Source: Ianthella basta (Eukaryota > Porifera > Demospongiae > Verongiida > Ianthellidae). From it: a DNA stretch of 64,000 nucleotides. Below the pieces are notes generated by a model. It was not told the DNA's origin. It worked only from the letters and a program-made list of their open reading frames with translations, and did not search any database. Shown one piece after another: positions 30,726 to 59,328 of the stretch (positions are counted from its first letter, which is position 1; each line of letters opens with the position of its first letter). The stretch covers positions 4,435,813-4,499,812 of the forward strand of contig OZ025880.1 of NCBI GenBank assembly GCA_964019415.1. The letters are read 5' to 3'. The translations under genes and the position numbers were made by a program.

Positions 30726-31589
30726 ATGGATGTGCCTGCAAGAGTTCAGCTTTCGCAATACTTTGGTACTCCCCCGAGCACTTTTCATTTCCAGGACAAG
30801 GAACCAGAGATTGGAAGTGGCGCCTATGGTTGCGTTTACCCCGGTGAGCTCAATGGACGCCCTGTGGCGGTAAAGAGAATCCACTCTCTACTGTTGGAAG
30901 CATGCGAGACCCACGTCTCCCGTTCTAAACTAGTGAAGTCATTCGAGAACGAATGTCATCAAATGGAGAGGCTGAACCACCCTCGCTTAGTTGCATTCCT
31001 TGGCGCGTATCGGGATGCAAAAGGCCCGTTCTTGGTAATGGACAGACTGGTGCAGGACCTCCGCCGCTTTCTAATTCGGAATAAGGGAAAGCTGAGCCTA
31101 AGGAAGCAATTTCAGCTCTGTTTAGACATTGCCAGTGGCCTACATTACTTACATTCACAGAAGCCTCCACTTATTCACCGCGACCTCACCGACAAAAACA
31201 TCCTTATTGACAAAGATGGGAAAGCAAGCATCGCAGACCTGGGACAATCCAAGCTCAAGATTCACCCGTATCAGTACTTCAACACAATGGCACCCGGAGC
31301 TGCAGTGTTCATGCCACCAGAAGCACTGAGACGAAATGCACACTACAATGAAAAAGTGGACATCTTCTCCCTTGGGGTGCTAATCCTGGAGATTACCACA
31401 CAGCTGGAACCATCGCCAGGGTTGCTGGCCATTGATGTGGTTGATGAAACAGAGCGTCGCAAAGAAGAACTTGATCGCTTGCCAGATGCTCACCCTCTGA
31501 GGCAGTTAATTTTGAGCTGCTTAAACAATGACTATCACAAGAGGCCATGTATCAGTCAGCTGTATGAAACTCTTCAGCAGCTTGCCGAG
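30726..31589 (+). other. Kinase domain exon of the fusion gene
   Basis: A single 288-codon exon encodes a full bilobal kinase. Visible parts: glycine loop GSGAYGCV (30-37), catalytic lysine in VAVK (50), C-helix glutamate in FENE, catalytic loop HRDLTDKN (151-158), a DLG variant of the metal-binding DFG (171-173), PPE in place of APE (197-199), DIFSLGVLILEI in helix F and a conserved RP near 273. All catalytic residues are present, so it should be active. HRDLTDKN sits between tyrosine-kinase and tyrosine-kinase-like patterns; I favour the TKL group. The frame continues past the donor GAG/GTATGG to a stop at 31758-31760, which would give an unspliced short form. Confidence 0.88.
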
Positions 31590-34500
31590 GTATGGGGCAG
31601 TTACACATGTACATACCTGTATGTTCATGCATTTACAGTACATGCTTCAATCCCATTATATGTGTCTTTCTACTCATTGGTAACATTTGTGATACACTGT
31701 TCTGGGTCAGTTTTGACCATCTTTCTCATGTGTGGGCAGGAGAATAGGTCATGCACATGACACTAGCTATGAACTAATTACGTCTAATTGAATAGTCTAA
31801 TATTTTCTCTATCATTCGCCTTTGTTACCTTTGTAACTTCAAAAGCAAAGTTATTCACTAAAAGTGCTTTTAACGCCAAAAGTGTCTAGATAGTATCTTA
31901 CCAGCAAATATGATCGAGTTAAGAACCCACAGTTTCTTAATAAACACCTGGACACAATGACCCTATGTTCTTTAGGTCTCTGATGTACAGTTTGCCATAC
32001 ATGCCAATGGTTATGCAATAGACAGTGGTAATTTTCTTTCATGGAGTTAAAGGGTGACAATGTTAAAGCATTTTTTTCTAGAAATGCACATTCACAAGTT
32101 GTTTTGGGTTAATTTTCACATTGAAGGAAGGTTCTTCCATTTGGTAGGTCTTTTGTGTAAAGAACCTTAAAATTTCAGGTAGTTTCCCATGTGCGCACAT
32201 GTTTTTTGCAGTGGCACATATAGTGACATCCCAACTTCTGTCCTTGTTGTGTGGGATGCATTGTTACAACCCTTAGTAAGCAGCATTTGTTGTCAGTGTG
32301 GCTAAATCATAATTAAAGTTTTTATTTAGTTATCTAACCATTCACAAGTAAATGCAATATGATGCTTTTCACAAATAGGCATGGTATTCAAGGCTAGGAG
32401 GTACAGTAGTTATATTATATGTACATATATGTGTACACTATCCTATCAGGATTCAGGGTCGGCTACAAGTGGGAATATCATTTCTTTGCTGTTGTCAGTT
32501 ATTTCAAGATTTATTCATGCACTGAATAAATATAATTATTAGAAATTGCACAACCTTTATCATCCCTAAATGCTACCACATTCTTCGATGGGGGGCGGGG
32601 GAAGGAGGTAGTGAAACTGTGCAGGCATTATTCTGAAGTTCGTGCACTCACCTTTGTCAACACAAGACTGTATTATGAAGAAGTAGTCATGCCAGGTATT
32701 GTTTTTGTGTTAATTGGGTCGAGCCCGAGCGAGCTCCACAGTTAGGCAATCAACGGCGACTTTGTCTGTTTGTAATTGTACGTCTTACCGTATAGTTCTA
32801 TTTGCGAACCGCATATTTACTAGCCACTTTTGGCTTCACAAACACTGTGATTGCACTATCGTGCATGTACAAACAATTATACATACCCTGCATACTGCAC
32901 AATGTACAGTACTAGTAATAATACCAATTAAGCTTCATAGCTATACATGTGCAGAAAGAGGTTGCAGACAACCATGGAGCTAGTTTCACTACACAGTATT
33001 ACAAATAGCAAATAATTTGAGGAATTCAATGCAATGAAGATAACTACAGTATTGTTGTCTAAAATGTTATGTATTGCTAAAGCAAGTATTAATGTGTTCT
33101 TCTTCCATGGTATTAAAGCCAGCAGAATTATTCAAACAAGCAAAAGAGTCACTCCAAGCTGCTGTCATCCTGCTGGATGCTGCACTATGCAAGATTACTG
33201 CCCTTGCCAGGGAATCAGAAACTATCTCAGATTCGCTGGAGGAGGCAAAAGCCAGAATGATTGTAGCCAAAACGATTGCTGATCGTAGTGAGAGGAAAGT
33301 GGTCTTCTTTGGTCGTACCAGCAATGGGAAGAGCACTCTCATCAATGCTCTCCTTCAATGCGACATCTTGTTCACTGGATATGGTGCTGTTACAAGTTAC
33401 TTTTGCCTCATTAAGGGCCAGAGTGAGTCTACTGGTGGATATGTAAAGCTGGAAAGCTCCGAGAAGCTCCCTATGGAGGTATATGCCACATGGCCTCTCT
33501 TGTGTATATACGTACCTGTTGGCATATAACTGTATCTACAGTACCTATGTAATGCTTATCTCATTCAGGATACGTCCCAATTCAAAGAGTACATCGAAGA
33601 GAGGGCCCAACCCACTGATTCCACCCTGAAGTTATATTGGTCCACTGCACAGTGCCCTATACTCAGTGGAGATATTGCTCTAGTGGATAGGTAAATAAGC
33701 TTTATCAAACACCACAGTAGTGCTGTCTATGTATGCAGGAATGGTGGTGGTTGTTTGCATGCTGTTACCTTAATACCACCAAAAAGTGTAGTATAATATG
33801 TTATTGAAAGACATTACCTGCAGTATTACTAGCTGTATTTCTACTCACCATCATGTCACTACCAGCATTCTCATTATTTGAGTGTGAGCTGGCTGATTTT
33901 TTAATTTTAATAGAGTGTTTATTTGTGTTTTCAGCACCACTGAAGTGAAATGTTTTAGTGGACACTTCAATGAAAAAAATTCCCAATTTTGATTGCCTAT
34001 CCCAAGTGGCTCCTTCATACCATTTTCATTCATACACTTTTTCTTGGTACCCACCATCAAAAATGGAGGCAGTGCCACACATTCCGTGACAGTACTATGT
34101 TTAAAAATACTCAATTCAGTACATAATCATAATGTATTATCATTATTAAAGTTCATTGCTATTTTATTCATCATGTATCCCCAAGGCAAGTAAATTTTAG
34201 CAGATGCATGCAGAATCAATCACATATAACTGCAGTTTGTGTGTCCTCATAGGCTTCATTTTGTCTTAAACTTACGATGGGGTGTGGAGCTGAAATGTCC
34301 TGAAATATCGTTCTTGCTATGCATTTACATAATTACCGTATGGCCAGAAATTTTGGCAGGGAATTTTTGGTGGATTGGCAGTTTTGAGTGCACTCTTCCA
34401 ATACGTTTTCCGCCAAAATTTGTGCAATCATATAGTTTTTCTGTTTAACAAGGCTGGATGTGCCATGCCTATAGATTAATTGTCAGCATGAAATTCACAA

Positions 34501-37500
34501 CTGACAGCAGCGCAAGGACGTTACGTTCCCAAGCAGTTTTGGACACTGGAGGTGGAAGAAGAGCGCAAGGAAGCCAAATAAAGGCAAACCGAACATCATC
34601 GTATATGCGGTCGCCGTGAAGACTGACGTTGAGATCATTGTCGGTAACTTGCTTCAGCAGATTTTGGCAGCTTGTTCTCTGTTTCTGCGTTGGAGGGTAC
34701 AATTGTGTGCGAGGTCACAGGCTGCAAGTGAGCGTCAGCAGATCTATCAAAAGGAGGCTTGAAAGCTTTTGTATGTTGCACCATTTGTGGGAAAAGCTAT
34801 AGAAGGATTGGAACAAAAATAGTCCAAATATGGTCAAACAATAGCACGTGTACTCCTCAGAGATGCTTTAGTAACCTTCTGTTCGTCCAGATTAATTGAT
34901 TAGCCATTTTGCTATGAATATCATTATGGCATCATTGTGCCAAACCGCCGAAGTAAATTCTACCAAATACAGAAATTTCAGCAATCTGCCAAAATAAATT
35001 CACGCCAAAATTTCCAGCCATACGGTATTAATTTTTCTTTTATTGCCAAATATAATTTTTTGTTTGGACTTGCTTTCTATTACTACAGCTTTGTATTATA
35101 TCAGCTACCATCCTTATGAACAGCATAAATTTAATAAGTACATATTACAATCATATAATTCATACATGAATAATATATTTCTGCTGACTGCATCACATGT
35201 TGAGAATTGCATCATCTATACTTGCAGCCCTGGGTTAAGTGCAAGAAATGGCACTGACGCTAAAGTGATTGAGCACTGTGTAGATGCTGACGTACTTGTA
35301 TATGTGTGTGATGGAAAGGCTACATTTGAAACTGGGGTAAGCACATTTGTGGAGTTGCCTGTATACCCAGTGGCTATTGCTTTGACTGTGTATCCATGCA
35401 GGAACAGGCTTTGTTTGAGAAAGTGAAGCTGAGTGTGTCCAATCCGTGCAACACCTTCATTGTTTTCAACCAATGGGACGTAGTGGAGAAAAAGAGAGGA
35501 GCTGATCGGGTGAAACAGCAACACCTTGAGAGGGTGAATGAGATCTTAGTTGAAAACCTTCATATTTACAATACAGAAATGGCTCAGAAGAGGACTTTCT
35601 TTCTGTCTGCTGAGGAGGCTTTAACCATGTGTGATATGCAGCATCAGACATCACCAAATGCGCAATCTGGAGGTAAGGCTCAACAAGTATTTTTGGTTAC
35701 AAATTCATGGGGCTCCGGCCTGAACTGGAACTACTTGCTAGCAATTTCCCCTCATATGCTCAATAGTTGAGATAGTTGGAATGGAGCAATGCTGATGGCC
35801 TGAAAGTTATACATTAATGTTAAATGCCCTACTGTGGCTAGACAGTTGGTTAGCAAGGGTTTCAAGTCTTCAGATCAGCCAGAGCAATCATTCAGTGAAA
35901 GCACCTCTACCAAAATGACAATATACTTCGCTGACTGCTATTTTGATTGACAAAACAATTTGAATGAGGATGTACATGTACTTTGAGCCTGATGGAGGAT
36001 TATCCTGGCTACACAGGCTACTCTAGATGGTTATGCAATTGATTCGCACGTCTCCGCCATTGTTAGCAAATGAGTCTTTCGACTTCCGTGTATTTGGGGC
36101 TGTATCTGGCAGCATGTCAATAAGCTTCTTACCATTGTATTATTATTTGAACCTGTTCCATTAACACTTCACATTCTTGAATACACAGCCAAATAGGAAG
36201 AAAGATTGTTGCATGCCTAGCAAACAGAAGAGCCATTTACAATGCCCGGCATACGTTTGTGGTAATAATTGAGGCTATATCTCTCAGAAGAATCCTTCGA
36301 TAGGCTTCTTGTTAGTATCACTCTATTAAAACATGCCTATGAACATATTTTATTCAAATAGAAGAAGGAAAAATAGCAATAAAGATGAGTGTTCTAAAGC
36401 AGTACCCCAATATTGACATAGCCCGTCTTGCAGTTCACAGAGAGTTATCCATCCACTTCCACTTTTTCCCTCACGGACAACTGCCATTTTCTAATTCTCG
36501 TTCCCAATGACTTCTGGTTTTGACCAGACTTGATTCACTGTCATCACACGGTCGAATTTAAACATAAATCAACACACCAGATATTATTTATCTTTAGCCT
36601 GCAGCATAAGACTAGCTGTAGCAGTATCATGATTGCTGAGGGCATCGGGGACAGGCTGGTTGGGTGTCGTATGAGCATAATCATGAAATATTCAATAATT
36701 ACTATGTTCAACATACATTATATGAATAACAGAACTACATCTGAAATGTCAACAGAAACACAATTACACAAATTCATGCACTTACTAGCTGCACTTTTGA
36801 AGACCCTGTTCCCATGAGATGTTAATGTTTGCAGACATAAACCACTCACCAAAGCGGAAAGCTCTCTGTTGCTCAAGCTCTCCTTGAATATGACCTAGCT
36901 GCCACACAGCTACAGAATCTGCCACAACAATTCAGCACTCTGATGAATGAGAAGGAAAGATGTTGTTCAAGGACCTATTTTATAGTGGATTTGGCTAACA
37001 GGAAGTGTGGGCACTACACAATTTGAAGAACTGGATGAAGAGACAACACATGGCAATAACAATGAGTTAGTCTCAGAGGATCTTTTTGTCTTACCCAGGT
37101 TCTGAGGCAGTCTGGTAGTGGCTGTGTCTCTTTCTGCAAGGCACCAAAAGAGAACGGCCTAAAATGGCATAAAGCTGTCTGCCAGGTCTCTCCAAGACAG
37201 TATAACAATGTTTCTAAGATTGTGAATTGTTTTCTTCCGCTGACAGTAGCTTATTTATGGTTTACAGGTGCTTTAGATGCACCAAAAGCAATGAAAAGCA
37301 TTAAAAGGTGGCAAATGTTTAAACCTAATCCAGCCAATTGGATTCAAGGATTGCTGGAGAACCACTTGATGATATCGTCCTGATGATGCAACTATAGCAC
37401 TCTACTCATAACACAACCTTCACCTTGTGCTGCATCAGCAATTTGACCTCACCCCGTGTACCATAAATTCCATAAGGGACTCCTAACCAACTTTAGGTAG

Positions 37501-40500
37501 TACATTTACATGTATAATTAGACGAATGTAAAGCATTGTGGGGGCGAGCGGGAGTATATATGCATGCAGGGGCATGTTGGTAAGTAATGACGGAGACAGC
37601 AGGATTTGCATTAAGGTGTGCCTTGCAGTGTCAGACTGCGCAACTGCAAGTGCACAATGTGTACAATTAAGAAATAGACAGATGCAAAGTTAACTTCGGC
37701 TACAGCAAGCAAGGCTGAGTAAGAGAAGGTAGCTAAATGGTAGCAAAGCTGCAGCACACTTCGAACCCAGCCCGTGCAGTCTTTGTAGAGGCAAGTGGTC
37801 CAGTGCACCCTCACTCACGATCCTGACAGGCGCTGCCCAGTGGGATTGTAAGAATGTGAAGCTGTACCGGGCAGATGCAACTTTCCGCCACAACAAGCAA
37901 GGGAACCATCAAACTACAGCACACTTCCCCCCTGACCCACTCAGTCCCTGTGTAGGCAGTGAGCCCATGCCCACGTCCAGTTCCCCATCCCCATCCTGCC
38001 AGTTGCCTCATCCAGCGGAGTCTCTACAGCTAGTAGGCAAAACACTAAAAGACAGCGGCATCGATAATGCAGCCCGCCGCCGCTGCTAGATCAACTCCCT
38101 GCAGTGTCTTGTCCTAATTGCAGAAGCCCCCAGTGAGGGTCAGTGAGAACAAATGTTGACTTGGCATTTGTTTGGTCAGTGCAAATTAATCTGCCAGGCA
38201 GCTTTCTGCTTCAGTCCTTCCCAGCGCATCACGACACATTGTCCACAGTAGGAAGTCCTTTACATATGTTGAACACATTTCATTCCTCCTGGAATGGAAC
38301 ACTTTCAGCCTTTGGGCTAGCATTTAATTGTAGCAGCACCAAACTGAAATGTTTGTTCATCCAAAAAATCAATATGATGATAAAGGTATTGGAGCTTCAA
38401 AATTTTCATTCCAGTTGCAACAAACCTGTTATACCATGGCTACTCGAGCACTCAACTCTTTTATAGCCCTCATGGCCATTACTTTTATATACTTGTATGT
38501 ATACATAGTAACATCATAATATATATTATATATCACGTTTGTCACTTTCTGTGTTCATGTAGAGTTGAAGCGTCAACAGGAGTTCCAGAAATTTCGGAGA
38601 CTGATGCAGGTATGCATTTACAACATGCTGCAGCAATGGTTTCAACTGCATGGAGTCTTGTCTAGCCAGCCCACTTTCTCCCCTCCTTTTACGACATTAT
38701 CGCCTTGTTTATACAGTGCAAGTAAAAATATACACCACTAATCTAAAGTAAATAATATAATGTAATATAATATAATATAATATAATATAGCATGATATAA
38801 TATAATATAATATAATATGTATTAGTTATAACACCTCCTTGAGAGATGTCACTGATTTCTAAGCACGAGCCCTGAGGGCGCAAAGTGCCCGATTGAAGGG
38901 GAGTGCTTATATAGCAACGACATCCTGACATACTCTATATTATTTATTTGCCAAACAAAAGTAAGCGTGGGCGAATGTTAATTGGTTTCTTACCAAATAA
39001 GGAAAGCATTAGTGCGGGCAAATCCAATGCATTATCATTCTTTAGGCTAGCGAGGAGCCTAGTGAACCAGGCAGAAATGCCCGTACGCTGCCTCTCCGGA
39101 AACCTCTTCATCTACAAAGGAGATGTCTTGCCCCACTTCTGCAACACGGTCGGAGGCGCCAACAAGACTTTGCTGGTGAATCTTGTGTCAGTGGAAGGTG
39201 CGCCCGATAGCAGTGGAGGCAGAGAGAGCCAAGCTGGCTCAGAGGAATCTAACGGTGCTTCATTCGGTAGCTAGCTAGCTACCTGAGATGTCTTTTGGAC
39301 CCGGTCCTCTCGTGTGTAAGAATGGGCCACCATCAACGCACAAATTTTGACAGCTGTAGTATGGCAGTAGTAGTATGGCAGTAATCAGTTTGCTCAGTGC
39401 TTCCAATAGGATGAAGCTTTTTGCGCCGTTTACTAGGACTGAAACTACAGTGGCACCATTGATATTCAAAACCCAACCATATAAATGGTAGGGTAGTGTA
39501 GAGTTACTGTATGCTTCATTGGACTGTTTTTGTTTGATCTTAAAGCAAGCACTTACATGTGAAGTGTTATTGCTATTGATTGAATCACACTGAACCCGAT
39601 TAGATATTCTTGCTCTCCAATAAGATATACAATCACTGTCTGATAAGACATTGTCACCTCTCACTGCAAGTAGCACTTTATAGTCACTCACTAAATATGT
39701 CAACCACCTAGCAACGGCAAATGAAATATAACATAATATAATGTCTGGGGATTTGGAGGCTCCCATGAGCATGTGCTATGTAAGACAGTATGGGAGACTT
39801 TAAGAGTTTTCAATTATACAGAATTTTTTTGATTAGGGCTTTGACTTTGTACAAGGAGCCTGGAAACTTGTAATACAAATGCGCATAAGATAAAACTTTA
39901 TGTATAACAAATATTAGTATAAATATAGTCAGAACCAGGAACATTAGCGTTGGGAGGTGCCATAATTCACAAATTGTTCCCGCATAGATACCTTGCATTG
40001 TTAACCCATATCCATCCAATCCATATGTCACAGTTTTTGGAGCACTGAATGCACGTCTATATTGTTGTCCGATTTAGGTATTCGTATGGCTTCATGTTCG
40101 TAATCATGTAAGCTTCTGTCATTGCAAATGGCGGCGCTCACGTCTTTCTTTGCAAAGCTTGAAATAATCTCTAATGCATAGCATTTCACTGTCTCTCAAT
40201 CGAACGAAATGTGTTCTTGAACATGTGTTAATAGAGTGATACTCATAAAATGCTTAACAAAAGACTCTTCTGTGAGATACAGCTCCAACTATCACGGATG
40301 GAGATTGTAAAATGGCCGCGTTTGACGCTCTCTGTTTCTTTGACTGAAAGTCATTTTTCTTCGTATTTCGCTGTGTATCCAAAAGAATGAAAAGTCTTTC
40401 TAGAACACGTTTAAGTAATATTGTTGTAGTAGAAAGCTTACCTAACTATTTCCCTGCAAGGTACAGCCCCAAATGCAGCAGAGGTCGAAAAACTCATTGG

Positions 40501-43500
40501 CTTATGAGAGACAATCGAATCATGGCATTGCCACTTAGGATAGCCTTTTTAGCCAGCACACTTCTGCAGGATCCAAGTACATAACATGTACATCCTCATT
40601 CAGAATCTTCAGGCTACTAGCAATGCTGCATCCTCAACTATCAGAGCTATTGTACACAGGGAAGTTGTTAGCAGGTAGTTTGTTAACTCGAAATATTGTT
40701 GTTCAAAAAATGTGATGCCGTTAATGCCAAATGACACATTTAGATGTTATAGCCAAAGAGGATTTAAGAGCATTTCTTCTCTGGCTGCAACTATGCCACA
40801 CCAACATTTGTTTGCATGACATGTACTAGTGGCAGAGCCTTCTCAGCAGGCCTACCTTGTCTTCTGGATGAACAAGCTGCATACAAGGAACTGCTATATT
40901 TAAGTGAAATTGTGCAACGTCTGCCTTGTCTGTTTTTCAATCCCAAACACTTGCAAAGTGTCATGAATCTGAGAAAGAAGGACTCTGCATCTTCCTGTGC
41001 TAAACGTGTATTATACATGAGAAGGAAAGGATCATAAGCATAAACACAGCAAGGCCCGATGGAAGAAGCTACGTCCAAAGACAAAGCCGATGGAAGGAGC
41101 TACGGTCCGAAGACCTTAAGGCAACCTGTCGAAACAAGTCACGATCGGCGTCAATACTGTCCGTAGATCTTTGAAACGACTTTGGGCTGCAAAGAAAGTG
41201 GCGCCACCCGGAATCAAACCCAGAACATCTGGCTTTAGCTGCCAATGCTCTAGCCACTGAGCTACGACACCCCGCCGGCAACCACTCGCTTTGCAGCCCA
41301 TATAAACCATGCTTGAGGTGATTATTGCTAGATTAAAGGATAATTGCTGCGTAGAAATAGCTGAGAAGGAAAGGATCATAAGCGTAAACACAGCAAGGCC
41401 CGATGGAAGAAGTTACGTCCGAAGACAAAGCCAATGGAAGGAGCTACGGTCCGAAGACCTTAAGGCAACCTGTCGAAACAAGTCACAATCTTCCATTGGG
41501 CCTTGCTGTGTTTACGCTTATGATCCTTTCCTTCTGAGCTATTTCTATGCAGCAATTATCATTTAAATAGTGTATTATACATATTGCTCAAAGGAAACAT
41601 GTCTTCACATGAAGAGCCCAAATAAACATTGGGGCCAAAAGGCTGTCTGCCATTCTGGACTATATGGTTAAACAGAAAGTTCCTCTTGCATTGTCATTTG
41701 GGTAAACAATAACATGAAAGTGCAAAAACATGGTGCATCAATTCCTCATACATATATACAGCTATCGGATTATTATTTTAACAAAAGATAAATTGGCTGC
41801 ATGGCACGATGTTAAAACTGTGTTTGTAATGGCCTACATTGGACCTGTGATTCTAGCAAATTCCGGGCAACCCGGCACCTGCAATTGCTGATGACCACCA
41901 TTTATTAGTTCATGCCTACAACTGGAACAACATGCTATTAAATAAGTCTGTTCTATAAGTATATGCTAGTGTGTACATTTGGTTGATCCTAATTGCATGT
42001 GATGCAGGAATGCAGATCGAGTGAAATTTACACAAATGAGGTGTGTCACCGGGTCGAGTTACTACCACTACCTAAATTTTTGTCAGGCCATTTCTAAATC
42101 CCTTGTAAGATATTGGAAACTAATGCTTATTGATTTATATTCATTAGCTCTAATTTCACCTTACTGAAAACAATCAGCTGTAGTGTTGTATAATACACAT
42201 GCTTATTTCAATTTATGTAGGAATGTCTTGACGAGGCTACAATTGCTACTAAGATTGGTAGACACCACTCTGCCTGTGTGAAGACCGTTGAGGATGTGAT
42301 GGTTACTCTTAATAGAATGGAAGATCAATTGAAAGATAAGCAGTACGAAATACAAATGACACATTTAGTCCCTAATTGATTGAAACTACAGTAGAGCCTG
42401 TGTCAGTGGTCACCTAAGTTAGCAGTCATCTAGCATAAGCCTAGGCCTGTCAGTAGAACAAGTATGTCGAGTTAAAAAATACTCGTGGGGCTGCCACCCC
42501 AACTCGAAATACTTGCTCCCTATGGTTGCTGCTGTCAATATAGTAGCTAGTGCAACTAATTTTGTGTAACTCATCAGTACACTTGTGAACACACTTCATA
42601 GGCAAGAATGAACACAAATGATTGAAGCGGACATGAATAGAGTCAAAATATTTGACACACATTTGCACAACGGCACAGTACATTAACCGACATATCTTGT
42701 ACACAGTTTGCACATTCTCAGAGTTGCCAAAACACAATCAAGTATATACACGCACAGACACACAAACAAACAACCCCTCCACCCCCACCCACCCCCACCC
42801 ACCCACACACATACGCATGTAGCTAAACACACATGCAAACTTACGTACATGCTTTCTAAAAGACATGGATGAGAGGAGAGGGACATGGATGAAGGGCACA
42901 CATAACTGCAAATGCTTTACAGCACACCCGCAGTCATTGCAGCAGCTAGGGTTCTAGTGTGGCAAAAGGCAGTTCGCTCTACCACACTACGTGCACCATC
43001 TGGAGGAAATTTCGAAGGGTAACTTGTGCGCGCTTAAGCTTTAAACGCCATAGACCGTTAGCAAATGTTTGCATACTGAATTTGTGGGGCTCGCCAAGTT
43101 CTACATCGTTCCTGTCACTTCTCTGAGACAGGGAACTGAAGTCCTTCAACGGGGCCATGATTGAAAGCATAGTGTGAACCAAGTTGCCAAACTGCTGGGT
43201 GTTATCCCTCTGTTTTCAGTACATCTTCAGACTAGAGGTGATGTAGTTGCCTGTTCAAAAAAACAGCAGCATTTCACCCTTTTATAGGCTTCATCAGCCA
43301 CTTCTGGTTGAAGCCTGTATCAGATGAAACATTGTATTAAAGTTGAATATAATAGCAAGATGGAACTCTACTAGTGTGTTTGATTGTCCAAATGAACTAA
43401 CATTCAACTACCTAGAGTTGTCAAATATAATTTTCATAACATACTAAGAATTAGTCTGTAGTTACCAGAACAGTCCTGGCAATGCAATTATTATTATGAC

Positions 43501-46500
43501 CCTTGCCTATTATTTGGGTTCAGCAGCAATTGTATATAACAATCCCAGCATGTGCTTTTTTCATGCAGGAGTGAATTGGAAAGAGAGAAAGCATCCAAAA
43601 CATCCATACTTAGGAAGATTGTTGCTGATAAAGAGACACTTGAAGAAATATCTGAAGAGCATGTACAAAGTGCATTGAAAATACTTGATGCATTGGTATG
43701 TTGAAGGTAGAAATTCTGTCAAGCATGTTCTCAATTATACTTTACTTGCTGCATACTGTTGTCCACACACCCTAGGCCAGCTCAAAATTCATCCTATTTC
43801 TCCGTCAGTACCACATAATCATCTATAAATTTATGCCCTCAATCCGTCTCTATGAATCCTAGCTATGACCATAACTCTTTCCACTGCATGCGAACCCCCT
43901 CTTTTGTATGGGTAGGTATGAACTGCTCTTTAGTACTAGCCTTTCACCAGAACTTTACTGCTTCCTTTCTGACTCTGTGAAAGGTTGGGAATGATATAGA
44001 AAAGGATATGTAAGGAGTGGAGGAATATTTAACTTGAACTACGTATGTAAGATAATCGTGTTAACTATTATCAAAATTTTCTACTCACATTTGGGATGTG
44101 TCTCAATTTTCTGGATTCAATGCTGATTCCCCGTGCTTTCCAATGCAGATTGCATTTGAGTACATCAACATTCATGTGAAACTAAAGCTACGCTTGTGCA
44201 AACTCTTCTCAACAACTGCATCCTAGACAGAGAATTGCTGCTACAGTTAGCTATATAGCAACCTAAAACCACAAAATGTCAATATGGAACAGATAGAAAG
44301 GCAGCAAGCAACACATGAGCACAGAATGGTACACAAACACACATCTTTCATGTTGTGCCGCAACTCATCTGTTCATCTGTTCATGTGTTGGTGAAAACTG
44401 CATTCCTTCCAGGTCTAGAAGTGGGTCTTTGCAGTGTATCTCATGAATAGTTTCACAGATCAACAGAGGCTACACTGAACTGCTCAAGCACGAGTCTGTG
44501 TACCATTCTGTATTCTCTGATTTTCACAACGGGCTATGCTGTCATCGGCATGCATTTCCCCATCTATAGGAAGCTGTAGCTGCATATGATTGTTTCAGAC
44601 CAGTGGGAAACACAAGGATTTAGCTGCAGGTTTACACAAAGTAGCTTACTTTCTCTCTGTGTGATCTGTAGTAGAAGTGGAGGAAAAATGGAGTGTGCCA
44701 AAACGTCAGTCACACAAAAAGATTATACTGCTACAGGACATGTACAACAACCAGGACACTGCATCCGCACTGCATTCACGCCTGAGGGCAAGTGAAATAA
44801 GAAGCATATAGTCTGCAACGTAGTGTACTATAATTGTAATTGCAAACTATTGTTTTTAAAAAGTTAGGCCATAGTAATTAAATTTCTGTTTCTCATCCTA
44901 CCCGTTGCCTTCAAAGTCAGGTGGGCGGACAGGCAAATTACAAGCAAAGGAAATAATTACATAGCTTTTTATATTGCAGAAACCTGTGTTAGGCTGCATG
45001 TGAGAAATTTGCAATGGTGTGTGTTTTTCAAGGCTTGAAAAGGCAATATCCAATGCGGACTTAGTATATATTAATACATTGTGTTTTTGCCAGCTCCTCT
45101 GTCAGTAGGTGTATGAGGAAGGGGATGAAAAGAGGAAAATTTAATTGCTGTGGCCTTAAGAAGAATGTACATTGCTGATTCACTGAACCCTCGAATGTTT
45201 CATAGGTAAACATGTAGGAGATCAGAAGGAATGAATCTACAAGATATCACGATTCTTTTGTAGAAGCACTGCTCATGTTGTCACCGTGGCCAGAGGAACT
45301 TAGTAACTACATAGCTACTTAGACTGCAATGAGGCCTATGCAAAGAGTGTTACAGCATAGTAACACCGCAGTTTCAATGTGTTTGGTCTCTGAAGATATT
45401 CTATGGGATACAGGTGCACAGTTGGTATAGTGACATATGCCAGGCCTTATCAAGTTTGGACTGCTTGCAGAAAATAACATCTGAATTTACTGTAGCTACA
45501 ATATGGAGACGGGGCAGGGCAGTCACTTTGAAAGAATAAAGAAGGCGCCACTTGTACGGGTCGGAACGTTTTAGCTTGCAGTTGTTACAGTGCAGTGTGG
45601 CAGTGGAAGCCTGTTGTATTCAGTAGAGAAAGGACAATTTCAGTTGTGCCAAAGACACTTCATGCTTAATGTTTGCATCTTCATTCATCCATCCTTGGAT
45701 GAACATGGCATGCACACAAGCAAGTCATGCACAATCATGGGATGAAATGAGCATACACTGTCAAAACACGACAAGGTGGCGCATGCACATGTTGCAAGAA
45801 AGTGACACATGCAATGTGAACAGCAGCTGCACAGCAAGAAAGGTGTGAAAAATGAACGACAATCTTGAAATAAAATAAACTTCATACATTAAGCTGATTG
45901 GCTAAAATGAGAGCTCAGAGTTCTCCGGGCAATTAATAACCCAGCTAGCTTGGTTATATACGATTTATAGTCTTTTGGTCTAGTCTTTTGGTTTGATGTC
46001 TCTGGCATTGCCTTGGCAACCAATAATGAATTATTCTTATTGTGTGCAGTTTGATGACATGCATGAGAAGATCAAGAAGACTCTGCTAGGAGAAATAGCA
46101 GTGTATCGTCCCAAGTCAGATAAAGAAAAATGGGCAGACTACCAAGCAGGAATGATAGAACACTTGGATGAGGCAAGGAAGGAAGTGATGGAGTCATCTG
46201 AGGAACTAATGAGCACATTTGTCATTGACAGGATGGCATCTCTGCAAGGTACAGTCAACCTAATTACATTGCATACAGTTCTACATAATTGTCCACAGCA
46301 CTGTGTGCACATGTAAGTGCACATGCTACTCATTTGCAGCTGCAATTGAAGAAGCACAGGCAAAGATTGATCAACACAGGTATGCATTAATGATTCACCC
46401 TTGCTAGGAATTTGAACATTGTATTGTGTATGCACACAATGCATGAATTGAACAAATTGCCATGATTTGATGTTATTGGCATTCAAATTATTATAGCCAC

Positions 46501-48789
46501 GTTTTACATGGAAACGTTTCTAAGTGCAGAGATGTTATCACAGAGGGAATATCACTTCTGTTTTTGCCATGTTTACATGGAAAGACCAAGGTGCTACCCA
46601 ACAGCCTTGTTCAGCTATTGTGAGAAGATGGCTTCTTTCTATTTTCGGGCAGTGACCAACTTAAGAGGATCTACCAACGAAGAGGAATGAGTGTGTGGCA
46701 AAGGAAAGGACTGGTTAGGTGAAGGATGGTACGATGAATAAACACAGTCCAATATGATGCACACAAAGGAGTAGACGTTTGTTTCGACTAATGAAGACGT
46801 GGAACTAATCGGCAGAGCTATGCATGCTATGATTTGAGGTACCAGGAAACAAATCCAGCTTCTATCTTTGCCAACAGGAATGAATGGTTTTGTCTTTAAT
46901 TTGCTTCCAAAAATTCTGTTTTTGCCCGTTTACATGGCAACATTACGGCTACCTTTTCTAAGCCTTCCACCTTGGAATGTATCATTGAAAACCATCGTTG
47001 TCCAAATCATTTTCAGTATTTTTGTGTAAATGGAAAGTCCAAACGCAACCAAACACATTATGGATATAAATTATACAGGCAAAACCATTTCCATGACCTA
47101 ATACAGAAGTTAGAGAGTTAAAGAGTGATAGCATATAGCAACTGGACTCACAACAATCAAACTTCAATCCATGGATCTTTCTCAACTGGTGTAAAACTGA
47201 AATGACTTAAGAGAAACTAGTTCTGTAAATTTGTTGGTGGGTGTGGCAGTGGATGATGTGTGAATATATAGAATAGCATGCATGACATTAGAATGTAATT
47301 AGTGAACATTAGAATATAATGAATGGGCAATGGTAGTTGGTTGGGGAGGCATTGCAGCAGGTCCCAGATAGGTCTGAAGATGTGGCCATGGTCAAGGTTG
47401 GAGGTTATGACTCGAAAAGTCTAGATATTAGTTTGATTCTTGTGAATTCCAGTGGCTGCTCTATCACTCATTAAGTCTCTAACCTCAGTTATTCATGCAG
47501 CAATGAGCCTCTATCAAATCATTATATCAATGCAGTTTGAGTTTGGAGCAACCAGCTTGTGTTGACCTGGCTAGAGGATATCGTGCTAGACCAAAGTTTA
47601 CACGATTTGTGAGAGATTCATCGGTAAGTCATTCATTATGAAGTCAATCATCGGCAAGTAGTGTGCACAATATTGGGCTGAAGTTGGTAGATTGTGGGTA
47701 AGTGTACGTACAGTTCCACCCTTGGCTTCTGAGGTATTGCGGCTACATTACATCTACTATGTTGTGAAGTATAATGATCTGAGACTCTGAGGTTAGTGAA
47801 TTTTTCTGTTTAGAAGCTATGCTCTTATGAAGCACCTGCAGCTAATGGGAGCACCAATTAGGGTTCAATCTACTGCATGGGGGGGGGGATCATACACAAG
47901 CACTCCAGCTTTCTCCCAAAGTGCTTGCCAATTGCAGGTAGTAAAATTACAGTAAAGTGAATTTTAACTCTCAGAAAGCCATTCTCAAAGGGCCTAAATC
48001 CAAAACTTCTTAGCCTCTGGAACTCTGAAGCTATATGTCCAACTTCTGCAAAGGGTGGCAGTTGCTAATCAGCTTAATTGGTAATGCTGTAATGGTGCAC
48101 ACGATGGTTGCTATAGGCTGGCAAGCATCAACCAAATAATGCAATATGTTGGAGGACAATGCAGTGTAATAAACTTAAATTAGTGCACTAAGTCTTGCCT
48201 ATCTCTTTGCTTGCCCACACTTGTGCATGGGGTGGGGCTGGGGTCAGTGGTTTTAATGTATAGACGTTGTCTGTCCTTGCAGCATTCATTTCTGAAAGAC
48301 GTGCGGTCTGCTTGGAAAACGAACCCCCATGCTGACAGCAGTTTTGAATTCATTACTTTGAATGGTTTAGAATGTAAGGTGCCGAAGTGGTTTAAGCACA
48401 GCGCTGGAAGTGATTTTTGGGAAGTATTCTTCTGGGTAAGTATGATGTGTGGATAGTACAAATCACAATTTCTTTCATACTGTTGACTTTCCTGCCAATC
48501 TGTGTGCCACAAGCATTCCGTCTTGCATGCATGCTCACCCACAGGAAGCATGCAGAAGCAATAGATTGAATGGTAATCATTGGATATTATGCCAAACCTA
48601 ACAAGTATTTCGAGTTAAAAAAACTCGTGGGGCTGCCGCCCCAACTCGAAATACTTGCTCCCTTCGGTCGCTGCTCTGTCACTCATGATTGGTAACACAT
48701 GACATTGTGTCATACACCTCAGTGACAGTACACATACACCACTAGTCACCAAACATAGCTACATGACACACACACACACATACACATGT

Positions 48790-48827
<38 letters not shown>

Positions 48828-48868
48828 GCACGCACGCACACATACACATGTGCAAACACACAGACACA

Positions 48869-48925
<57 letters not shown>

Positions 48926-49590: not shown

Positions 49591-49621
<31 letters not shown>

Positions 49622-50810: not shown

Positions 50811-50854
<44 letters not shown>

Positions 50855-53800
50855 AAGCACTTTTGCGTTACAAACTGTTACTAAGCGCAAATGCATGCAC
50901 TATAGCTAAATATACCACGTTGCCATGGCAACCGTGCGAATATATATCGCGTAAACAAGCCAGTCAGGATATAACAGGAGCTAAGAAGCATATATATGCA
51001 CAGGGGCGCTTAAATCCTGTTATATCCCAGCCCAAATATGGAAGGTGTGAAAGTGAACAAGGAATTGTTATTGATAACAACGAAGGTGTCAAATCATACC
51101 AAAGCACAAACGCACAAATGCAGCAACTTGCAGTCAGCTTCAACTTTGCATGGCTTTGGGAGAGTCCGCAAAGCATTAAAAAGGAGAATACCTCCCTCCA
51201 CCACGATGCAACCAATGCACGCAAGCCAACAACGTAAAGCGCTTCGTAGCCAAGCTAGATAAAACATGTACGGGACCTGCACAGTGCACAAACGAGAAAC
51301 AGCAAGCTCGTGCGCTAATTCGTACGCAAGGGCACTCAAACTCACTGCAGCAGTGGGAACGCACTGTTTCATGGAGAACAGAAAGTCGAGCAGCGAGCGC
51401 AAATAACCCTCGAAGGCCGAGAACGTCACAGAAGCCTCACCAATCACTTCACTGGCTTCTTAGAGTGTTGCTTTAGTGGTTTAATTTCAGGCAAAAACTT
51501 CACAGCACTTGTGAATTCAACAAAACTTGACAGCCGCTTTTCAGAGCTGCCATCCTGGAAGAAGCCTGCCTTTCGAATAAGAGCCTAGATGCGCTAGGCA
51601 GGGTATATATCACTTATACCATGGCGCTTCGGTGTATGTAAATTTTAGACGCACTAGAGTCCACATCATCTGCATAAGCAATGTCCAAGGGCAGGTCTAT
51701 GTCTGTTTGAGGATGCTGTGGTAGCATCTGTCATAGGTCACGTAGGGCTGCTTCTAGGTACACAATGAATAGAGCAGGTGACAGGCTATCTCCTTGAGGG
51801 GTGCCAATAGTAGTGTTAAATGCTGCACACCTCCCTTTCGCCAGCCATGGTTCCAGAGTTGTATTTGCTAACAATAGGCAGATCATACGTAGCTCTGAGT
51901 CATCCAGAAATGTCTCCAGGAGCTGCATCAATCTGTCACGCCTGATGGTGTCAAATGCTCTGCTCACATCCATTCCCAGTATTTCCATGGCCTCCTAACA
52001 TCTTTGAGACTTAGCTGCCATCCAGCAGTATCCAAACACACCATCAGCAGTGCTTCTGCCATGCTAGAATCCACTCTGTCCTGCTGAAATACTGGAATTG
52101 ACTTTATTGGAAATTTGTGACAATACCACCAATGACAGCACCTTACAAAGGGTAGTAAGTAAAACTATTGGTCTCAGGCTTGACAGTGCTCCAATTGCAT
52201 GGCTTTCCAGGCATCTGCTACAGTATTCCAGTATTCCACGACCCAGCTCAAGTGGTTGACCGTGTTCCAGCGCTTGATTGAATATTGCTGCCAATGATGC
52301 ATCCAGTTGGTTTGCAGCATACTTCAGTAACTCACCGGGCAGTGAGTCGTATCCACATGCACGGGCATTGTTAAGCTTCTTCATTGGGCTATTCACCTCA
52401 CTCGTTTCAATTGGCTGCTGCAGAGGTTGATTGACACTCTTGAATGCTGGAAGCCCAACTGTCACATCATCTCAAAACGGATGACCGAAGTATTCAGTAA
52501 TGCATTTGCCTACTTCTACTGGATCTTCAACAGTGTGACCGTGCTCATTGTGCATCGATCACTGCATGTAGGTATGGTCTGCAACAGAGAAAGCAGACTG
52601 CACGAAACATCCGAACTCCCATCGTGCAATCTTTCCACTTCTGCTGCACATTCATTAAGTGCTGCTGATGCATTAGTAAGTGCCTTCCTTCTCAAGGCAT
52701 GAAGTACACTGTTGCATTGTCGTTTGAGTTGTTGTCGTTGTTGGTCATCAGTGGTGGTGTTGATGCACAGGCATAGGTCTCTTTGCTTAGTGGACATCTT
52801 TGCCAGCTCCGGACAGAACAGACGTTTATGGCATTGAGTTGGAGGGACAGTAGCAATTGTAGATTCTGCAGCGTAGTGTATGGCATCTGCAGTACTTTGC
52901 CATTGTTCTTGTGCAGATTTGCCTTTAAGCGGTAGGTCTGCAACACTTTGAGCAAGATGTAGTTGGTATTCAAGGCACACTATAGGCTTGGCTAATTGTT
53001 GAGTGGCATAGTTAGTAGACTTGGTAGTGGTGTGAGCACACTTGCCCCATATACCAACGATACGGGAAATATTGGCACGTGCAACCACTAGACGATGGTC
53101 ACTAGACATTTTGGTGCCAGCATATGACTTTGCATCTTGCAGAAGAGATTTGTGGGACTGATGACGTAGAACAGAATGAATCATGTTGTAGACAGGCACT
53201 ACTTGGTTAGTTACAATATCTCTGCGTTGTCCTTGCCATGTTGTTTTATGACATGCTGGATGATCAAAGGCAGTGTTACATGCAAACAGTCCATGCATGT
53301 CTAAAAATGTGCTAGCGCAGACCCATTGGCATTCCTGCAACCACGAGAATGTCTCCCCATGAAGTTTTCTTGTTCATGACGTATTGGAGTTGAAGTCACC
53401 AGCAATGTAAAAGAGTGTGCTGGCTCTGTAGGCTGAAATAACTGTGACTAAGTCACAAAAGAACTCTTCCTGTTCCCCAATGTTGGCACCGACATGCACA
53501 GCAGTAGGGCCATACGCATTGATTACTGTCATGATTGATTTCCCAGACAAACTAAACTGAATAACTGCCAATCTGTCAGATACTGACCAAAACGGGTGAT
53601 CCACTTCACCAGCCAATCAGTTACTGCATAACCCAGTCCATACTGTCGTGTTTCTGATGGCAATGCTAACAGTCGGTAACTTCCACGGAGTTCATCAAAA
53701 ATATTCGCACACTTCGTCTCTTGTAAACAGCAGACTGTGATCTGGTGACTCGAAAGGTCCGCAACTAATTGATCACTCTTAGTGCCTGAAGTAAGGCCTC

Positions 53801-56800
53801 AAACATTGAACGAACCAATGAACAACAACCGTATAAAGATGTGCCACCTCTGTGAGCCGTTTGTCTGCTCAGAGACATGGCAGGATGTCAGTCTGCCATT
53901 TTAAGGTGCCATTTTGCATGAATGTATGGAGCTGGATATATGGGTTGAAATGGAAAGGGAATAGCGTGTGACTCCATGAATATACATAGATAGAGATACA
54001 TACACCAGCTAGGCATGCGTAAAAAATGCATAGTAATTATGTATCTCAGAGCCATGAGATAACTAGTGTCATACAGTTTGTTACTAAAGGTGAATTCTCT
54101 GTTTCACTGTACCTTATTCAGATTGGTGCGAGCACTATTGCTGCTCCTTTGGGTGCAGCATCCCTTTCTGTATTGGGGTATAAATGGTTAACTGACAAAG
54201 ATAATGAGCACCTGGACCAGGTCAAGGGAAAGGTAAGCTACGTATATATACTACCTATACTTGCAATCATTACGTTAGGTTACCAGTGTACGTTGTGTAA
54301 GGTGGCTGCAAGACGTGTAAGCATGGCAGCAAATGAAAGTTTGGTATCCTGCATGTATATGTGTGGCAAAATACATTTGGAAGACTGCATGTCACTCGAG
54401 TGGTATGATCCACCAGTGTTTGCCATATCCTTTATTGTATGTGGTCAATCACTTGACCTTCCTACCAGCTTGTTAGGCCAGTATTGATGTTTCAGTAAAG
54501 AGGGGGGGGGAAGTACGATTGAGGGCGACTAGTGATTAGTTGAAAGGTTTATACTTTTAAGTGTTCAGTGTCCAAAATGCAGTGATTAACTTTCAATCGT
54601 TCAACCCAGCTTGTCCTGTCCATTGTGGTGGCCAAATGCAAAGCACTGACCTTGCAATAGCTTCACAATGCTGTGAATAAAGTCAAAAAAGTACCCTTTC
54701 AGAAATTGATGTATCGTTATAACTGTCCTCCTCTGCCTTGCAGATCAATGACCACTTGAATAGTGACCTGGATGCCTGGAAAGAGGACATCAAGAGCAAG
54801 CACCTGAAAAGCCTTAGAGGTTCATTTCAGTCTCAGGTTGAATGCCTCAGCAAAGGCCTAGCAGACAAAGAGAAGGTTCTTAACCAAGATTTGGGAGATC
54901 TGGAGCAGAGGATTGCTCACTACCCTGCATGGATAGATCAAGTAAATGATTATCGGTAAGTTCTACCAGTAGGTCATTCATTCTACCTATTAATGAACCA
55001 TTACCGTTGGATGAGGTTGTATGTAACCCCAAACCCAATAATTGCTATATTGCTTATCCTCCGCTTCATGTACACATTTCCATTTTAGCAGTTGGATAGT
55101 GCATTTGAAGGCCTTTTGAATGATACCAAACTTGGTTTTGTTTCCTTACCCTTTTTGACAAGTTATGGCCAGATAAATTATGCCCTTCAAAGTAGTTATA
55201 GGTAGTCATTGGGCAAGACAGTTATATGGAAGAGGACAGCTCAGATGATGAGTATCCACACATAAAAATGCCCTGCCAAGTGCTGAAGATAGTACCTTGT
55301 TACCTCTCATGATTGTCGCTACTTCCAACAACTTTAGAAGGTATATCCCACCTTGTGAATGGGATTCACTTCTTGTACTCAATGGAGATTGGGAAAATGA
55401 TCGAGTTCAATAGCTACTCACTGACACAGAAGATTTTGCTGAAGTCAGATTTGGCAATGGTATATAAAAGTATGCTGAGCAAGAGGAAGTTGAAGTCAGC
55501 AGAATCAGCCGAAGAAGAATAGTACTAGTGTGACTTGAATGGTGAGGGAGGTGTTGAGTCAATTACTGTAGCATTCATTCCAATACGAGCAATTATACAA
55601 CTGTTCACTCAGGAAGCTTGACACCTTCAACCACATGTACAGCTACATGTACTCTCCTGAATGGACCAGGTACAGGAGGGCAGATCCAGAAGGAGAGGCA
55701 GAGGGGGAGGCAAAGGTAGAGGGGGAAATGCAACATCACCTGCAGAGAGAGGTGGGTGGATGAGAAGGGGAGGAATGAGCAGAACAGAAGCAGAGAAAGG
55801 GAACAAGTGGAGGAAGAGGGAGAAGCAGAGTTAGTTCACATGACAGCTGGTGAACTTGCAACAGAGTAAAGTACTATCTTTCAGTCTTCTAACTTCCCAC
55901 TGGCGCTCCATGCATTCATCGAGACAACGATCTGTTTTGTGAAGACTCCAGTGTACTTGACAATATATCAATGGATACCACTGATCCAATGGACTCGAGC
56001 TCCTATGCTTTAATTTGTCCTTTGACACTGGTATCTATGTACCATTGACACTCTGCATGGTAGATAACACCACTACGTATGAATATTGTCTGCACAGAGT
56101 TGCTGAACAAGTACCCTGCCATTGCACCATGCATGCTTTCGTTGCAACATTGATTGCCATGGGAGTTGTTCAACTGCCAATTTTACATCTCCAAAGATTA
56201 CTAATCAATGCAATTAATTTTGGAGTAGCCATTATTCTGTCAAGTCTTTGTATGAGATTGATTATAGTCAACTTCCAATTTATCAGCCTATGATGACAAG
56301 CTATTCATAGTCAGACCAGAAATAGTCCACCAGGGTATTTCAGAATAGTCAGGAGCACATTAATGAGAAAAGAATGGAGGGGGTAAAGCAAGAAGCACAC
56401 ATGAAAATAGTTGTATCTGTGATGTTTTGCCACTTTCGAGGCATTACTATTCTTGGAACAGTGTGTATGTACAGGCTGGGTGCAGTGGAATCATCTTCTG
56501 CCATTCAAAGTGCACTGATCAATATGTACGTACATGGCTTGGATTACACTACCATAATGGAAAACATCATCTGACTGCAAATAATGTGGGTTCTGGCTGA
56601 TACAGGCATATATCAGTCAATATTTACTCTACACTATAGACAGGATAACTATTTATTATCAGTCAAAAGGCTTCCAAAGCAAATGAAACTACCACACCTA
56701 CCAACTATTCTGACAAAATATCACAAGTTTGTTCATTGTAGCAACATTATGAAAGATAGTCTAAGTATGCTTCACAACAGCTGACTAGGCGAATTATATC

Positions 56801-57263
56801 CATTTTATCAATGCTCATGCATGTATCAGTCAATCATTTATTCATTGCAGTTGCAGTTGCAGCTAGCAAGAACAATACAGAAACACAGTTATTGCAGTCT
56901 ACACTCAGTCATCAGCATTGGCAAATGCCCAATTGATCCAGTCAACTGTTGCTACGGTAACAGATGTGGATGGTGAATTGTAAGAGTATGACCTCTCAGT
57001 ACTAGTAACCCACAGTAACTGATAGATTTAACCCTCCATATGTATGTCCCATATCTGGGCATTCAGCTATATAGGCTGCGAGGAAGTTTGGCAAAAATAA
57101 ATGGGTCAACGTAGCAACTAATTAAGTTGTTAAAATACCGAGGAATTTAAAATAGCCATGCCTAACAAGCTACTTCTCTTCTATCTCATGTAGGAAAGAA
57201 CTGCTGGAATTGCAACGTCGCCTTGATGATTTCTGCAGTGTATACCTTCAAGGAGAATGCTGA
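30726..57263 (+). CDS. Protein kinase-mitofusin fusion protein, 964 aa, 15 exons
   Basis: Exons: 30726-31589, 33119-33478, 33569-33690, 35228-35336, 35402-35672, 38563-38609, 42221-42342, 43569-43695, 46050-46248, 46340-46379, 47536-47623, 48283-48435, 54122-54232, 54744-54955 and 57194-57263. Every junction has GT-AG borders and matching phase (0,0,2,0,1,0,2,0,1,2,0,0,0,2), giving one frame to TGA. Residues 1-288 are a kinase. Residues 289-964 align along the whole mitofusin family: P-loop GRTSNGKST (353-361), G3 DSPG (448-451, split across an intron), G4 NQWD (508-511), heptad-repeat helices, a hydrophobic segment IGASTIAAPLGAASLSVLGY (from 835) and a C-terminal coiled coil of about 107 residues, close to human MFN2. 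Mitofusins tether and fuse mitochondrial outer membranes. Here a kinase replaces the usual short N-terminus. The alternative is two genes, with the GTPase starting at ATG 33107; the open donor and phase match argue against it. Confidence 0.85.
31590..33118. other. Intron 1 of the kinase-mitofusin gene
   Basis: 1.5 kb joining the kinase exon to the first GTPase exon, both in phase 0. The acceptor has a pyrimidine run TGTTCTTCTTCC about 10 bases before the AG. No promoter, polyadenylation signal cluster or other exon stands out, but none can be excluded by eye. Confidence 0.5.
34336..35025. mobile_element. MITE, 690 bp, TA-flanked
   Basis: The ends CCGTATGGCCAGAAATTTTG and its imperfect complement (CCGTATGGCTGGAAATTTTG on the other strand) are flanked by TA (34334-34335 and 35026-35027). 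Non-coding interior. Fits a Tc1/mariner-type non-autonomous element in the intron that splits the G3 motif codon. Confidence 0.7.
35673..38562. other. Intron 5 of the kinase-mitofusin gene
   Basis: 2.9 kb. It holds a purine/pyrimidine-mixed stretch and a frame at 37856-38089 rich in Ser and Pro, without recognised domains or splice sites. Possibly decayed transposon sequence. No host exon supported. Confidence 0.4.
38748..38822. repeat. AT-rich microsatellite, TAATA units
   Basis: Repeats of TAATA with one GC-containing interruption (AGCATGA). Lies in intron 6 of the kinase-mitofusin gene. Confidence 0.85.
39275..40031 (-). other. Antisense intronic reading frames, unrecognised
   Basis: Two minus-strand frames, 40031-39810 (73 codons, one hydrophobic helix LMFLVLTIFILIFVIHKVL) and 39772-39275 (165 codons, second hydrophobic stretch). 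Together they could be a small membrane protein or a chance pair. They lie antisense within intron 6. No family, start context or splice sites settle it. Confidence 0.2.
41010..41280 (-). mobile_element. tRNA-derived SINE
   Basis: On the minus strand the head (41271-41201) has tRNA-like A box TAGCTCAGTGGCTAGAGC, B box GGTTTGATTCC and pairable ends GGTGTCG/TGGCGCC. The anticodon-like loop AGCTAAA lacks the universal T before the anticodon. A body of about 190 bp follows, ending near CTTATGATCCTTTCCTTCTC. The body alone recurs in the same orientation at about 41360-41490 and inverted at about 41491-41560, which makes a palindrome. It is a Pol III-type retroelement, not a working tRNA. Confidence 0.75.
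42470..42540. repeat. Short dispersed repeat, copy 1
   Basis: The block around ACTCGTGGGGCTGCC, then CCCCAACTCGAAATACTTGC, is repeated nearly exactly at about 48607-48675. Both copies lie in introns of the kinase-mitofusin gene, in the same orientation. Origin unknown. Confidence 0.7.
42772..43260 (-). pseudogene. First-exon/promoter cassette, copy B, with (CA)-rich tract
   Basis: Closely similar to copy A (19215-19585). The minus-strand ATG is at 43158-43156, followed by 21 codons beginning MAPLKDFSSLSQRSDRNDVEL and a GC-type donor (43095/43094, CTTG then GCGAGC). A CA/CCACCC-rich tract lies on its intron side (42772-42812), as in the other copies. It is antisense in an intron of the kinase-mitofusin gene. 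Probably a fragment. Confidence 0.5.
43696..46049. other. Intron 8 of the kinase-mitofusin gene
   Basis: 2.35 kb without a recognised exon, RNA gene or well-bounded element. Short frames present look random. Confidence 0.4.
48607..48675. repeat. Short dispersed repeat, copy 2
   Basis: Second copy of the block at 42470-42540, sharing ACTCGTGGGGCTGCCGCC and CAACTCGAAATACTTGCTCC. Confidence 0.7.
48765..49570 (-). other. First-exon/promoter cassette, copy C, with (CA)n tract
   Basis: The most coding-like of three copies. Minus-strand ATG at 49294-49292 in an ATAATGGCC context, then 23 codons (MAAPASEDFTPPPGTHDRS, then NVET), ending in phase 1 at a good donor (49225/49224, ACTG then GTGAGC). On the plus strand, AAAATGGCCGACAATATAAA near 49494 matches copy A, suggesting a bidirectional promoter. 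The (CA)n array 48765-48937 lies in the presumed first intron. No later exon was found on the minus strand to the left, so the parent gene is unknown. It may be a transposed 5' end. Confidence 0.45.
49690..50190. mobile_element. Large foldback element, about 500 bp
   Basis: Arms of roughly 140 bp (about 49690-49830 and 50050-50190) are reverse complements. The left starts CTACACCAGTATTGGTGTC and the right ends GACACCAATACTAGTGTAG; inner blocks include AACAGCTGTCT and AGACAGCTGTT. Preceded by a (TA)n run at about 49590-49616. Non-coding. Confidence 0.75.
50811..50854. repeat. (ATC)n microsatellite
   Basis: About 14 uninterrupted ATC/CAT units in intron 12 of the kinase-mitofusin gene. Confidence 0.95.
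51094..51447 (-). other. Unrecognised antisense frame
   Basis: A 117-codon frame with several hydrophobic stretches and many Leu, Ala and Cys. The opposite strand is also open over much of it, so coding status is unclear. It may belong to a decayed transposon adjoining the LINE at 51.6 kb. Confidence 0.15.
51630..53890 (-). mobile_element. Antisense LINE with APE-type endonuclease and reverse transcriptase, truncated
   Basis: Minus-strand order: AP-endonuclease start (about 53850-53640, with QETKC), YGPT and FYIAGDFNSN (53616-53374), then SDHRLV and a linker (53340-52516), then RT fingers/palm with ACGYDSLPGELLKY (52465-52064), DVSRAFDTIRRDRL and GTPQGDSLSPALF (51988-51731), and AYADDVD just after in another frame (about 51690-51670). 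Frames change several times (at least three shifts) and the part after YADD is missing. It is a dead copy, different from the elements at 8.4, 14.2 and 20 kb. It sits in intron 12 of the kinase-mitofusin gene. Confidence 0.85.
54956..57193. other. Last intron of the kinase-mitofusin gene
   Basis: 2.2 kb. It includes a purine-rich stretch (about 55670-55830, GGAGGCAGAGG-type units) and a possible transposase remnant at 56380-56784. No host exon supported. Confidence 0.45.
56380..56784 (+). mobile_element. Possible piggyBac-like transposase remnant
   Basis: The frame at 56584-56784 begins MWVLADTGIYQSIFTLHYRQDN and later has YHKFVHCSNIMKDSLSML. This resembles the order of KVWVLAD, YTGKQDN and VYCDNFFTS in piggyBac transposases. 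The similarity is short and no ends or TTAA sites were established. Confidence 0.25.
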
Positions 57264-58879: not shown

Positions 58880-58947
<68 letters not shown>

Positions 58948-59179
58948 GCTGTTGCCCAGTAAGGCTGTAGCGTCCAAGTACCCTTCTCATCTGCTCCTCC
59001 TCCTTCTCCTCTGGGTAGCATTTCATCATGTACGTCAGGGCAGACTGGTCCAGTGGCAGGTGGTCTTTCAAGTGCTGTGAAGTGGGCAGGGGACCTTAGG
59101 AAACATGCTCTACTTGCATCAGAGACACAAACAGAAACAGTGACCATGAATTGACACTGTACACACACACACACACATG

Positions 59180-59211
<32 letters not shown>

Positions 59212-59285: not shown

Positions 59286-59328
<43 letters not shown>

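Follow-up and report, generated by a model that had tools for sequence, protein, structure and literature searches.

A single gene of the sponge Ianthella basta is predicted, with high confidence on sequence grounds, to encode one protein in which a TKL-like kinase is followed by a mitofusin-type GTPase, a heptad region, a hydrophobic segment and a coiled coil. The gene lies in a stretch of 64,000 nucleotides (hereafter the window), which is part of contig C13 in a 209-Mb genome. When the spliced model was rebuilt, it comprised 15 exons (30726–57263, + strand), all of them open, with GT-AG introns throughout and consistent phases, and yielded a protein of 964 aa whose stop codon ends at 57263. 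The first-pass annotation had joined 15 exons in one 964-codon frame without phase conflict, and the rebuilt model agreed. A Pfam search of the protein assigned PK_Tyr_Ser-Thr to residues 27–283 (1.5e-40) and Dynamin_N to residues 349–507 (3e-21); the weakest parts of the model are exons 10 and 12. Across the genome we counted 13 kinase–GTPase pairs, namely the window gene and twelve pairs in a tandem array on contig C16. The window gene is thus one of thirteen and not unique, which corrects the first-pass annotation. Taken together, the data are probably best explained by a family of fused kinase/mitofusin-like GTPases with GTP-driven clustering and signalling.

A genome search with exon 2 returned 16 matches, of which 15 were located on C16 and the window copy was the sole GTPase match on C13, while a kinase search gave at least 135 scored matches of 850 candidates. 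Each of the 12 kinase matches on C16 has a related GTPase exon after it, in the same orientation. The 15 GTPase exons of this contig were made up of 12 kinase-linked copies, one canonical mitofusin and two near-identical pieces (909467 and 938031). The conventional mitofusin sits beside the array (C16:740–747 kb), exhibits an Fzo_mitofusin match at 740.9 kb and carries a Met of its own some 58 residues ahead of the shared part, within the P-loop exon. The two pieces (L023 and L024, ~909.5 and ~938.0 kb, inside the array) were without a kinase match and were rejected as fused copies; by eye, they represented near-identical canonical mitofusin first exons, with the N-terminus of the canonical mitofusin and with switch I residues missing. 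Among the fused copies, L043 could be assembled into 15 exons and 973 residues (39% identity overall) with a phase equal to that of the window gene at all 14 introns; since its exons were sought under the condition of the window phases, this agreement means that fitting splice sites exist and is not a blind prediction. Under the same condition, 12 of the 13 exons sought in L044 were found, exon 6 being unmatched by the search motif used. The closest paralogue (C16, from ~780.9 kb downwards) shares 69% identity in the kinase and 57% in exon 2, and contains, in order, counterparts of exons 1–7, 9, 11, 12 and 13. Neither exon 8 nor exon 10 was recovered there, and no counterparts of exons 14–15 were found in order within 1.6 kb beyond exon 13; one exon 14 match (E 0.014) was out of order. 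The array also holds near-identical copies, and one of its kinases (C16:892294–893118) carries one in-frame TAA.

Exon 1 (30726..31589, +) encodes a complete TKL-like protein kinase of 288 aa with its own ATG and ends in a phase-0 donor (GAG/gtatgg). It matched PF07714 at 1.3e-41, and its best solved relatives were CTR1 (3.7e-33) and TNNI3K, both of which we take to be TKL kinases; EGFR, roco4 and FERONIA were also present among 14 distinct solved sequences. The window kinase keeps K50, E76, D153, N158, D171 and E199 (K, E, HRD-D, N, DLG-D and PPE-E), whose catalytic roles we presume from their motifs. All six residues were found in 16/16 kinases examined (12 GTPase-linked and 4 others). The first glycine of the glycine loop is present in the window kinase and missing in many array copies. 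Comparison with the closest paralogue gave a dN/dS of 0.211/0.989 for the kinase and of 0.328/1.012 for GTPase exon 2, and these low values support the assumption that kinase and GTPase are joined in one gene. The Pfam match and the retained catalytic residues are well in agreement with the earlier description of residues 1–288 as a TKL-like, apparently active kinase, and we predict that both enzymes, kinase and GTPase, are quite likely to be active.

The GTPase begins in exon 2 (33119..33478, +; Dynamin_N 8e-10), which encodes an N-terminal helix, the P-loop GRTSNGKST and switch I, and continues through exon 3 (33569..33690, +), exon 4 (35228..35336, +) and exon 5 (35402..35672, +), with DSPG (G3) across the exon 3/4 junction and NQWD (G4) in exon 5. 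The three motifs GRTSNGKST, DSPG and NQWD aligned with MFN1, and GxTSNGKS was kept in all 12 GTPase copies examined. Seven of ten solved-structure matches of the GTPase part corresponded to MFN1/MFN2 (8e-47 to 1.2e-44; best Mitofusin-1), the remaining three being 2.2e-4 or weaker. Furthermore, the MFN1 alignment runs on through exons 6 and 7, that is, through the heptad region 1 that follows the GTPase. Exon 6 (38563..38609, +) has counterparts in L043 and the closest paralogue; exon 7 (42221..42342, +; ECLDEATIATKIGRHH) is present in paralogues. The break at DSPG is common to the window gene and this genome's own mitofusin (BLAST). Pfam Fzo_mitofusin (PF04799) gave no match in the window protein at E 0.1, and in L043 it appeared at E 0.0012, below the cut-off. 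In a GTPase tree, the four fused copies sampled grouped as a single clade (100/100) with a long branch, and the tree program warned of long branches meeting. As far as sequence comparison goes, this GTPase lineage is divergent relative to ordinary mitofusins, and we therefore named it mitofusin-like.

The remainder of the protein is assembled from exons of uneven strength. Exon 8 (43569..43695, +) encodes a coiled coil and exhibited a weak match in L043 (E 0.005), whereas exon 9 (46050..46248, +), a helical region, was recovered in the closest paralogue at E 4e-14. Exon 10 (46340..46379, +), of 40 nt, is the weakest, its support consisting of splice sites, place and phase. Exon 11 (47536..47623, +) and exon 12 (48283..48435, +) were matched in the closest paralogue at E 2.6e-5 and, weakly but with the ends aligned, at E 0.003, respectively. 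Exon 13 (54122..54232, +; closest paralogue E 6e-7) contributes the hydrophobic segment. The C-terminal coiled coil is encoded by exon 14 (54744..54955, +), whose length and phase are as in L043, and ends together with the stop codon in exon 15 (57194..57263, +), which also has an L043 counterpart. The stretch at residue 831 showed a hydropathy of 1.57 over 19 aa, compared with 1.41–1.55 in three animal mitofusins, and spans the exon 12/13 join, where the end of exon 12 is uncertain. The exon 2 helix at residue 300 is more hydrophobic (1.78) than this proposed membrane segment. While exon 12 of L043 represents a Gly/Ala hydrophobic stretch, that of the window gene is non-hydrophobic, a form weakly supported by the closest paralogue match mentioned above; a search of the window for a hydrophobic exon 12 of the L043 type revealed none that was convincing. 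Membrane anchoring via the hydrophobic segment is thus considered putative. The initial statement that all mitofusin parts were present held for the GTPase motifs and heptad region 1, but was worded slightly too strongly, as Fzo_mitofusin was unmatched.

We propose, tentatively and as a quite possible mechanism, that the GTPase drives clustering of the kinase. The GTPase would self-associate in a GTP-dependent manner on an intracellular membrane, self-association would gather the kinase domains and lead to trans-autophosphorylation and signalling, and the GTPase could itself be regulated by phosphorylation. If both enzymes share one chain, the coupling to phosphorylation would be direct and testable, and the window protein would be a naturally occurring example of a tie between membrane tethering and phosphorylation. 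The suggestion in the first-pass annotation that a built-in kinase would tie a phosphorylation signal to membrane tethering or fusion, or direct the GTPase to another membrane, is plausible. In our opinion, a specialised role in sensing or signalling, perhaps in stress or immunity, is likelier than general mitochondrial fusion, because a conventional mitofusin has been kept and the tandem array contains near-identical copies and one stop-bearing copy. An alternative is that the fused gene acts in mitochondrial fusion at the outer membrane like any ordinary mitofusin, its kinase being an added regulator; this would accord with a GTPase nearest MFN1/MFN2 and with a hydrophobic segment followed, as expected, by a coiled coil. 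Phosphorylation of MFN1 and MFN2 would point in the same direction; one published account describes it for external kinases such as PINK1, ERK and JNK (PMC10906720). Nevertheless, with a conventional mitofusin kept in the genome and the fused lineage both diverged and tandemly expanded, we regard such a function as unlikely. It is very unlikely that the window gene is a decaying or non-functional chimera left from duplication: the lone position of its GTPase on C13, its long introns with a retroelement-like stretch in intron 12 (by eye) and the stop in one array kinase might suggest decay, but 15/15 exons are open, dN/dS values of 0.21 and 0.32 were obtained against the closest paralogue, and the catalytic residues are retained.

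The fusion junction corresponds to intron 1 (31590..33118, +, phase 0). Phase 0 was observed on both the kinase and the GTPase side in the window gene and in the 11 C16 pairs examined out of 12 (the twelfth being 975922/972544), ten of which were read by script and the eleventh from combined results. Among 12 GTPase exons (window and 11 C16 copies), nine had no in-frame Met upstream of the acceptor, and seven of these nine showed an in-frame stop directly at the acceptor; in all nine, the first internal Met occurred at exon residue 27–57. The exceptions were the window gene, L043 and L044, in which an in-frame ATG follows the upstream stop and precedes the exon 2 acceptor, in the window by 12 nt. 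The pairing on C16 (12/12), the phases of L043 and the nine exons without an upstream start indicate a fused gene family and not neighbouring genes. We are therefore confident, as far as gene structure can tell, that a single fused gene is present rather than two, and the phase-0 junction, the shared exon structure and the low dN/dS bear out the original claim that kinase and mitofusin-type GTPase are parts of one gene. Two neighbouring genes, namely a kinase of one exon whose end is near 31760 and an independent mitofusin-like gene whose start is near 33107, would fit a kinase frame that continues past the donor to a stop at 31760, the ATG upstream of exon 2, the AATAAA/ATTAAA motifs within intron 1 (31939, 32312, 32525 and 33112) and a weak alignment of about 20 residues between the window read-through and the closest paralogue, but are extremely unlikely given that the read-through alignment with L043 and L044 stops at the donor, that the tails beyond the donor differ among subgroups of copies, that nine of the 12 GTPase exons examined lack an upstream start, and that order and strand are the same in every C16 pair.

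The first-pass annotation knew of no described animal protein with this layout. In searches of public proteins (8000 candidates scored each), no protein combining a kinase with Dynamin_N was found among the matches listed (21, 25 and the best 120 of 399). This is in line with the earlier statement, but the public kinases among these matches were at most ~39% identical, indicating that the database lacks close relatives and that the absence is weak evidence. Likewise, the listed titles and opening lines of abstracts on mitofusin fusions and their evolution, sponge kinases and mitofusin phosphorylation did not describe a kinase–mitofusin protein. The top match, P0022 (E 1.2e-91), was considered as a candidate fusion and rejected, its sequence containing three kinase stretches instead. 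Like P0022, P0044–P0046 are long, and kinase makes up most of the Pfam domains listed for these four proteins.

Compared with the mitofusins MFN1, MFN2, Marf and Fzo, the window protein shares an order in which GTPase motifs are followed by a heptad region, a putative membrane segment and a C-terminal coil, but differs in its N-terminal kinase, its diverged long branch and the unmatched Fzo_mitofusin. LRRK2/Roco proteins combine a GTPase and a TKL-type kinase in one chain. They thus resemble the window protein in the coupling of a TKL-type kinase to a GTPase, with roco4 among the solved kinase relatives; however, the GTPase of the window protein is of the dynamin/mitofusin type and its kinase is N-terminal. 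No Pfam match to a Roc domain was obtained in the window protein at E 0.1. LRRK2/Roco is the closest working analogy, which is not meant as a family assignment. The public protein P0043 displays a related kinase followed by a GTPase and, by eye, a Gly-rich hydrophobic C-terminal stretch, but its GTPase belongs to the AIG1 family rather than to the mitofusins, and its kinase is 34% identical. Related kinases are also fused elsewhere, to Kelch in P0027, P0029, P0030, P0031 and P0034 and to SH2 in P0025 (Dysidea avara), although these proteins have no GTPase domain listed and their kinases are 34–37% identical.

As for the origin of the fusion, a mitofusin may have been duplicated and its short N-terminus replaced by an intronless kinase first exon. 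In a kinase tree, the 16 kinases sampled from the genome formed one clade (99/95); resolution was poor, and GTPase-linked kinases were mixed with those beside other domains and were not resolved as a single group. Four kinase exons sampled on other contigs (L048, L050, L051 and L049) all exhibited similar phase-0 donors (by eye). Downstream of them, we found Kelch (C8 and C3), PARP (C9) and, on C11, an unmatched P-loop-like frame of 753 aa. The latter, about 5.7 kb 3′ of its kinase, appeared Roc-like by eye, an assignment that was dropped when searches of Pfam (E 0.01) and of solved chains (E 0.5) yielded no match. We hypothesise that the kinase exon is a shuffled first-exon module. A broader proposal, which we judge somewhat unlikely, would be a modular system in which an intronless TKL first exon with a phase-0 donor was joined repeatedly to unrelated effectors by exon shuffling, giving a large, turning-over repertoire of cytosolic sensor kinases, perhaps immune, with the membrane GTPase as a trigger. 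Together with the tandem array, reuse of the kinase exon, if real, would make a clear-cut example of how domains were shuffled in an early animal lineage.

Elsewhere in the window, two reverse-transcriptase-like frames were recognised by eye on the minus strand (20360–22767 and 51731–53798), the second being located inside intron 12. Pieces resembling an ABC-F ATPase (by eye) were seen at 58557–63555 (−), with one motif occurring twice and CA repeats interrupting them. CA/TG repeat arrays occur, among other places, at 16.7–17.4, 48.7–49.0, 58.8–59.6 and 62.1–62.5 kb.
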